Below, piece by piece: positions 33,701-34,147 of a DNA stretch of 64,000 nucleotides. Positions within the stretch are counted from its first letter, which is position 1. Each line of letters opens with the position of its first letter. A model generated the notes under the pieces. The model was not told the origin of the DNA and made no database searches. It saw only the letters and a program-made list of their open reading frames with translations. The position numbers were made by a program, and so were the translations under genes. Origin of the DNA: Psychrobacter aquimaris (GTDB lineage Bacteria; Pseudomonadota; Gammaproteobacteria; Pseudomonadales; Moraxellaceae); assembly GCF_016107525.1 (NCBI RefSeq), contig NZ_JABASR010000011.1, positions 1-64,000 on the forward strand. The letters are read 5' to 3'.

Positions 33701-33725
33701 GACTGAAAAAATGATTCATATATTA

Positions 33726-33989
33726 AGGTCTGTTGAACATTCAAATATTAGGGCTGCTGATCGCTAAAATCGCACCAAACTAGGTGTAAATCGACGATAA
33801 TGTCGAGACATTAGCTAGGTTTGCAACAACGTTTGGAGGGGTTTTAGCATCAGCCTTTCAGGGCAGGACTATTTTTTGCTAATACATGGCGAAATTGTCT
33901 AACCTAGAATGACTAGGCATCAAAAATTTCACTGCGTATTGTCTAAAAAATAGCCTCTGCCAGTACCATATTTGAATGTCAACAGACCC
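33726..33989. mobile_element. MITE-like element, 264 bp, between cdsA and dxr
   Basis: The ends are inverted repeats of about 22 bp. The left end is AGGTCTGTTGAACATTCAAA, continuing TAT. The right end, read inwards on the other strand, is GGGTCTGTTGACATTCAAAT, continuing AT, with one substitution and one 1-bp indel. The dinucleotide TA flanks both sides (33724-33725 and 33990-33991), consistent with a TA target duplication. No reading frame inside could encode a transposase. An internal imperfect inverted repeat (around 33757-33769 and 33842-33853, CTGATCGCTAAAA against its complement with one indel) adds secondary structure. This is what a non-autonomous transposable element looks like; the parental IS family is not identified. 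It accounts for most of the 447-bp cdsA-dxr gap. Confidence 0.7.
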
Positions 33990-34147
33990 TAATTGCAGTA
34001 GTTAAGATGAATGACTAATTTGAGTAAGTATTTTACTCTGATTGATCGCTGCTTATAGTCAATACACTTGATATCGTTCACCTCTTATTTATCAGACGTT
34101 TTATCGATTTCTTATTTAATTTTTTAGAGTATCATTTACAGGCACCG

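Follow-up and report, generated by a model that had tools for sequence, protein, structure and literature searches.

The element between cdsA and dxr

The window, a stretch of 64,000 nucleotides of Psychrobacter aquimaris DNA, has a 264-bp element at positions 33726-33989 in the gap between cdsA and dxr. The genes around it are densely packed, with the dxr start 156 bp downstream, and the sequence reads TA on either flank (33724-33725 and 33990-33991). The features are as follows:

33724-33725, no strand: left TA of the target duplication (from the sequence; 64 of 77 copies have TA on both sides, single TA in the C22 empty sites)
33726-33748, plus strand: left terminal inverted repeat, AGGTCTGTTGAACATTCAAATAT (the consensus begins GGG; one base decayed)
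33751-33855, plus strand: core hairpin H1 (match of model R1, own genome C2:33751-33855; covariation)
33856-33862, plus strand: mini-hairpin at the H1/H2 junction, CC-TTTCA-GG region (limits approximate)
33861-33962, plus strand: core hairpin H2 (model R2 stretch L001:1642-1743; covariation)
33968-33989, minus strand: right terminal inverted repeat, GGGTCTGTTGACATTCAAATAT as read on the minus strand (one base deleted relative to the consensus)
33990-33991, no strand: right TA of the target duplication (from the sequence)

The terminal repeat consists of two inverted pairs of 15 nt (93%) and 12 nt (100%), about 23 bp in total, and a one-base deletion in the right arm of the window copy offsets these pairs. 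At either end, the two intact sister copies have the sequence TAGGGTCTGTTGAACATTCAAATAT, and the copy between cdsA and dxr is therefore a slightly decayed insertion. There is no open reading frame of 60 aa or more inside the 264 bp. The preliminary description, which gave terminal repeats of about 22 bp, TA dinucleotides immediately outside the element and no coding capacity, agrees with these results. The internal inverted repeat that it also reported resolves into two long hairpins, distinct from each other and separated by a mini-hairpin.

The cdsA-dxr site was found in 102 of 105 genomes of the genus. Thirty of these loci were fetched and only the window has the element, which is absent from the gap in 29 of 29 other genomes examined. 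The gap measures 448 nt in the window compared with 153-154 nt in its 13 closest relatives, and among the remaining 16 loci it is 77-290 nt long, so that the gene block, earlier described as tight, is so only in a relative sense. Comparison of the gap in related strains, as had been proposed, confirms that they lack the element but gives no clean join on the left, where the flank of the 13 close relatives differs from that of the window and makes the empty site imperfect. At the spot where the window's element ends, 12 of these 13 (L073-L085) carry ACGCCCTA and one carries ACGCCTA. Since ACGCCCTA is identical to the last eight bases of one of the end types described below (type B), the gaps in the close relatives may be remnants of a lost element and not sites that were never occupied.

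The suggestion that the element may supply a promoter or terminator for dxr is not supported, as neither is in excess over shuffled sequences. The scans gave two promoter-like sites compared with 1.7 expected, both outside the element, and no terminator compared with 0.3 expected. The element adds about 290 nt and a strong structure ahead of dxr, and an effect on this gene is possible but currently unsupported.

Copies, target sites and a candidate helper

Of the 11 places that a 276-bp query hits in the genome of the window (3.43 Mb in 41 contigs), three are full length, namely the window copy and two others at 97% identity. The element query matches 80 of the 105 genomes of the genus, own genome counted, so the search proposed in the preliminary description did reveal multiple copies. 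At least 117 stretches with the core pattern occur in GTDB genomes, and among the matches listed 80 of 80 are from Psychrobacter. From 83 loci, 77 copies were extracted (five loci had no match and one had no pair of ends), and 64 of the 77 have TA at both ends. For C22, one of the sister copies, all 13 of 13 close relatives align with the joined flanks as GAATGCATTTAGCCTAT and have a single TA, which is a clean empty site. None of the 70 scored copies lies inside a long open reading frame (81 copies in 80 listed loci, 11 being too close to the locus end). No plasmid copies were found for the window element or L019; one element of the second genus described below has a partial match on an A. 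baumannii plasmid.

The element is thus non-coding, shorter than about 500 bp and dispersed in many copies, with inverted ends, a target duplication and empty sites, which are the characteristics of a MITE. The sequence is neither single copy nor conserved everywhere, its ends are not unique, and the initial classification as a MITE with TA duplication is borne out by the copy number, the TA ends, the C22 empty site and the candidate helper.

Six copies of 329 bp (L167-L171 and L069, in genomes G052, G063, G068, G070, G084 and G057) contain an insert of about 60 bases precisely where the mini-hairpin separates H1 from H2. L062 is seemingly a deletion derivative that keeps part of this insert.

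The search for a helper started from pairs of element-type ends about 860 bp apart. The candidate is an IS of about 860 bp with one open reading frame of 250 aa, a DDE transposase that matches NF033580 (IS5 family), PF13340 and PF01609. After the TA, its 16-bp ends read GGG(CG/TC)TGTTGAACATT, and one IS (L113) has the exact 16 bp of the MITE at both ends. All 14 of the 14 full IS copies with exact ends are flanked by TA on both sides, and the target is YTAR in 12 of them; the MITE has YTAR at 32 of 49 distinct sites with TA on both sides. Both ends and target are consequently common to the element and the IS5-family element, and an IS with the same ends, which the preliminary description lacked, has a candidate with the same or nearly the same 16 bp. 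On these similarities the IS5-family element of about 860 bp is likely to be the helper of the MITE. We take the IS5-family ISs with TA duplication to be the IS427-like group, the family itself being given by NF033580.

The MITE resembles these ISs in the 16-bp ends (within two bases), the TA duplication and the YTAR target. The ISs differ in that they carry a transposase gene and that their two ends diverge beyond 16 bp, whereas the repeat of the MITE runs to about 23 bp and a less than exhaustive search found no transposase remnant in its core. In a comparison of the MITE with ISs, L056 was matched over 20 bp of the end only, and L057 and L058 had no reported match. Transposase homologues at E ≤0.001 are present in 83 of the 105 genomes with widely varying identity. 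The genome of the window has one decayed homologue, 36% identical and with three stops. Unless an IS is missing from the draft assembly, the element may thus be stranded in this genome.

In genome G118 of genus g15, an element of the family directly adjoins a decayed piece of an IS5-family transposase (L244/L380).

The folded core in two genera

The predicted fold of the window element has an energy of -103.4 kcal/mol (z -10.9) on the plus strand and -102.5 (z -9.8) on the minus strand, and on each strand 0 of 200 shuffles fold as well. In the consensus fold, which spans about 270 nt, the terminal repeats pair into a stem that closes off H1, the mini-hairpin and H2. For 58 distinct Psychrobacter copies, restricted to those of 266-272 nt, the fold has 101 pairs with 96.3% of cells paired, and 31 pairs show a two-sided change with the pairing kept. 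When 64 copies of mixed length were folded, the second hairpin was poor because of gaps. In a subset of 24 copies, two-sided changes were found in 31 of 95 pairs compared with a mean of 13.6 in shuffles, which do not keep relatedness, and 0 of 500 shuffles reach 31. Slid structures in this subset have at most 48.2% of cells paired, a comparison in which the structures are favoured because they were derived from the same sequences on which the pairs were counted. Tree parsimony for the 58 copies gives 32 two-sided Watson-Crick changes and 40 one-sided departures on internal branches, compared with 17 and 146 at the tips. This suggests that moving lineages keep the pairing while single copies decay.

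A covariance model of H1 finds matches in 120 of 299 Moraxellaceae genomes. Three of the 16 genera are represented, the window's genus with 81 genomes, g25 with 38 and g15 with one. When 16 of the g25 and g15 genomes were searched again, each had 1 to 24 H1 matches. Genus g25 is probably Acinetobacter because one of its elements matches the A. baumannii plasmid mentioned above (77.9% over 37% of the element length). Thirty loci from the g25 and g15 genomes were fetched, and they have the same layout and are mostly 266-271 bp long. In 28 of the 30 (the exceptions are L236 and L237), an H2 model based solely on Psychrobacter has a match next to H1, and this support does not depend on the way in which the loci were located. 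For 24 of these elements (six loci were dropped for length; 23 are from g25 and one from g15) the fold has 104 pairs with 94.5% of cells paired and two-sided changes in 62 pairs. A second alignment gives two-sided changes in 58 of 94 pairs compared with a shuffled mean of 26.7, which 0 of 500 shuffles reach. Compensatory changes of the kind used to recognise structured RNA are accordingly present in both genera, with structures taken from the same sequences. Comparison of the sequences thus shows a family in at least two genera with a strongly conserved folded core. One g25 element, L222, has type B ends and the highest H1 score outside the window's genus, which suggests a recent transfer between the genera.

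The fold does not identify the molecule in which it would act. Departures from pairing in H1 are G-U more often than A-C (42 to 17 by events), and for H2 the ratio in Psychrobacter is 13 to 24 and that in the second genus 13 to 11. The ratio of 17 to 1 for H1 in the second genus is biased because those elements were found with an RNA model of H1. As evidence for an RNA strand the test was discarded, being inconsistent between the hairpins and dependent on the strand that chooses the pairs. There was no Rfam match for the window at E up to 1 or for ten second-genus loci at the gathering threshold. H1 and H2 have short stretches in common in the second-genus consensus, and the idea that they are inverted copies of one unit was also discarded, as the alignment of the whole hairpins beat all 100 shuffles in only 1 of 24 second-genus elements and 0 of 24 from Psychrobacter.

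Copying from arm to arm could explain part of the two-sided changes, and selection on the fold is therefore likely but not proven. Mismatches and loops stay in place in both genera, which argues that copying alone is not enough.

End types and a proposed exchange of ends

The Psychrobacter copies have several types of ends: A (GGGTCTGTTGAACATT), A2 (one base from A), B (GGGCGTGTTGAACATT), C (GGGCGTGTGGAACATT) and D (GGGGCTGTATAGAATT). Type E (GGGTCTGTTGACATTT) is found in g25. By nearest type, 70 of 76 Psychrobacter copies have the same type on both sides (L152 left out). The six unmatched copies are four with A and A2, one with B and C, and the window copy, which is counted here because its deletion makes one end resemble E. 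In a tree of 81 elements based on the core, the end type changes at least 10 times compared with 37.7 for shuffled labels (mixed copies left out, A2 treated as A, and g25 and g15 elements set to E except L222). The ends are thus inherited but switch repeatedly. Two bases separate A from B, and a single base separates B from C and A from A2, so switches between A and B or B and C are weak when taken singly, and many of the ten changes could be point mutations at both ends.

The strong case for switching is a pair in genome G074 (L159 and L162). Their cores are 96% identical, and 6 of 16 bases differ at each end; L159 is of type D with the left end one base off, and L162 is of type C with the right end one base off. 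Type D is identical to the 5' end of a second IS5-family group (L133-L136, about 51% identical in the transposase), in which the 3' end is two bases off D. The genomes that hold type D elements, G074 and G066, yielded no intact IS with such ends; the ISs with a D-matching end are from other genomes of the genus. Six IS loci from four g25 genomes (G272, G223, G296 and G261), with transposases 57-59% identical, have one or both ends identical to type E. L371 has type E at both ends and a stop in its open reading frame.

Bacterial MITEs are generally viewed as relics of one IS. The explanation that we prefer, with a probability of roughly 0.7, is a long-lived, structured satellite MITE that is moved in trans and has repeatedly taken the ends of different IS5-family helpers. 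IS5-family transposases would recognise 16-bp ends such as GGG(TC/CG)TGTTGAACATT and move the MITE in trans, with insertion at YTAR and duplication of TA; the movement by a partner transposase is what we infer, and the ends, target and duplication are observed. The core would not be a remnant of the transposase gene; it is a structured module of H1, mini-hairpin and H2, kept by two-sided changes in both genera. Its lineages appear to swap both ends together for other types, several of which are the ends of IS5-family elements of the same genus. In the proposed mechanism, recombination with an IS would replace one end. While single-stranded or cruciform DNA keeps the arms paired, template switching or conversion would then transfer the change to the opposite arm. 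With repeated exchange of ends, the module would outlive each helper. A more far-reaching version, to which we give somewhat less than even odds, is a Moraxellaceae satellite that is defined by its constrained hairpin core, exchanges its ends in concert for successive transposases and relies on the fold to keep them identical.

It is rather unlikely that the element is simply an IS5-family MITE in which the hairpins arise as a by-product of mutation, quasi-palindrome correction making both arms change, without selection on the fold or a special role for the core. Template switching between paired arms would make arms and ends change in concert, as they do, and no RNA strand is consistently singled out. 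However, such correction should lead to perfect palindromes, while internal mismatches and loops persist in both genera, many unpaired columns are invariant and the core length is nearly constant across the two genera. Maintenance of the element for a functional structured RNA, or for hairpins at which mRNA is processed, would account for the strong fold, the covariation, the excess of G-U departures in H1 and the lack of scored copies inside long open reading frames. This seems improbable considering the ratios in H2, the biased ratio in H1 of the second genus, the similar fold energies on both strands and the lack of an Rfam match. That the sequence is just conserved intergenic DNA of the ordinary kind, or an element that regulates dxr, is hardly credible; the position in a dense block just ahead of dxr fits this, but the element is missing from the gap in all other genomes examined, is found elsewhere in many genomes and brings no excess of promoters or terminators.

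The satellite MITE that we favour has relatives in kind. MITEAba12 of A. baumannii is 113 bp long with ends GGCTTTGTTGCACAAA, a 9-bp target duplication and ISAba12 as helper (PMC6382973). It is also short and without transposase, comes from the same bacterial family and has ends that match a resident IS thought to mobilise it, but sequence, length and target are all unlike those of the Psychrobacter element, and the text of that paper does not mention Psychrobacter (PMC6382973). The element was therefore rejected as a MITEAba12 copy, having neither these ends nor the 9-bp duplication. Correia elements and QMITE2 (full length about 190 bp) are bacterial MITEs with strongly folding transcripts, and transcripts with Correia elements are cut by RNase III (PMC10969869). 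QMITE2 differs in having duplications of 7-9 bp, and for neither family do the consulted parts of the paper mention a covarying core across genera or a matched exchange of both ends (PMC10969869). In full-text searches of PubMed Central, none of the matches listed names the element in its title or abstract opening, and no paper was found with the end sequences.

The family combines a core common to two genera with ends that come in several types and are matched in pairs, and in one instance such different pairs occur in the same genome. This opens two testable questions, namely how the ends of a MITE stay identical and whether the core of a MITE can be selected for its own fold. It also means that very strong hairpins have been placed between genes in many Psychrobacter and, apparently, Acinetobacter genomes.

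The genus also has other IS5-family groups of about 840-870 bp (L137-L148 and L151), whose ends include GGGCGTGTCCCTAAT and GGGCGTGTCTTCAATT. In the genome of the window, two element-type ends stand head to head on one TA (L065, G000:C5:48437-48470, AATGTTCAACACGCCCTAGGGCATGTTGAACATT).
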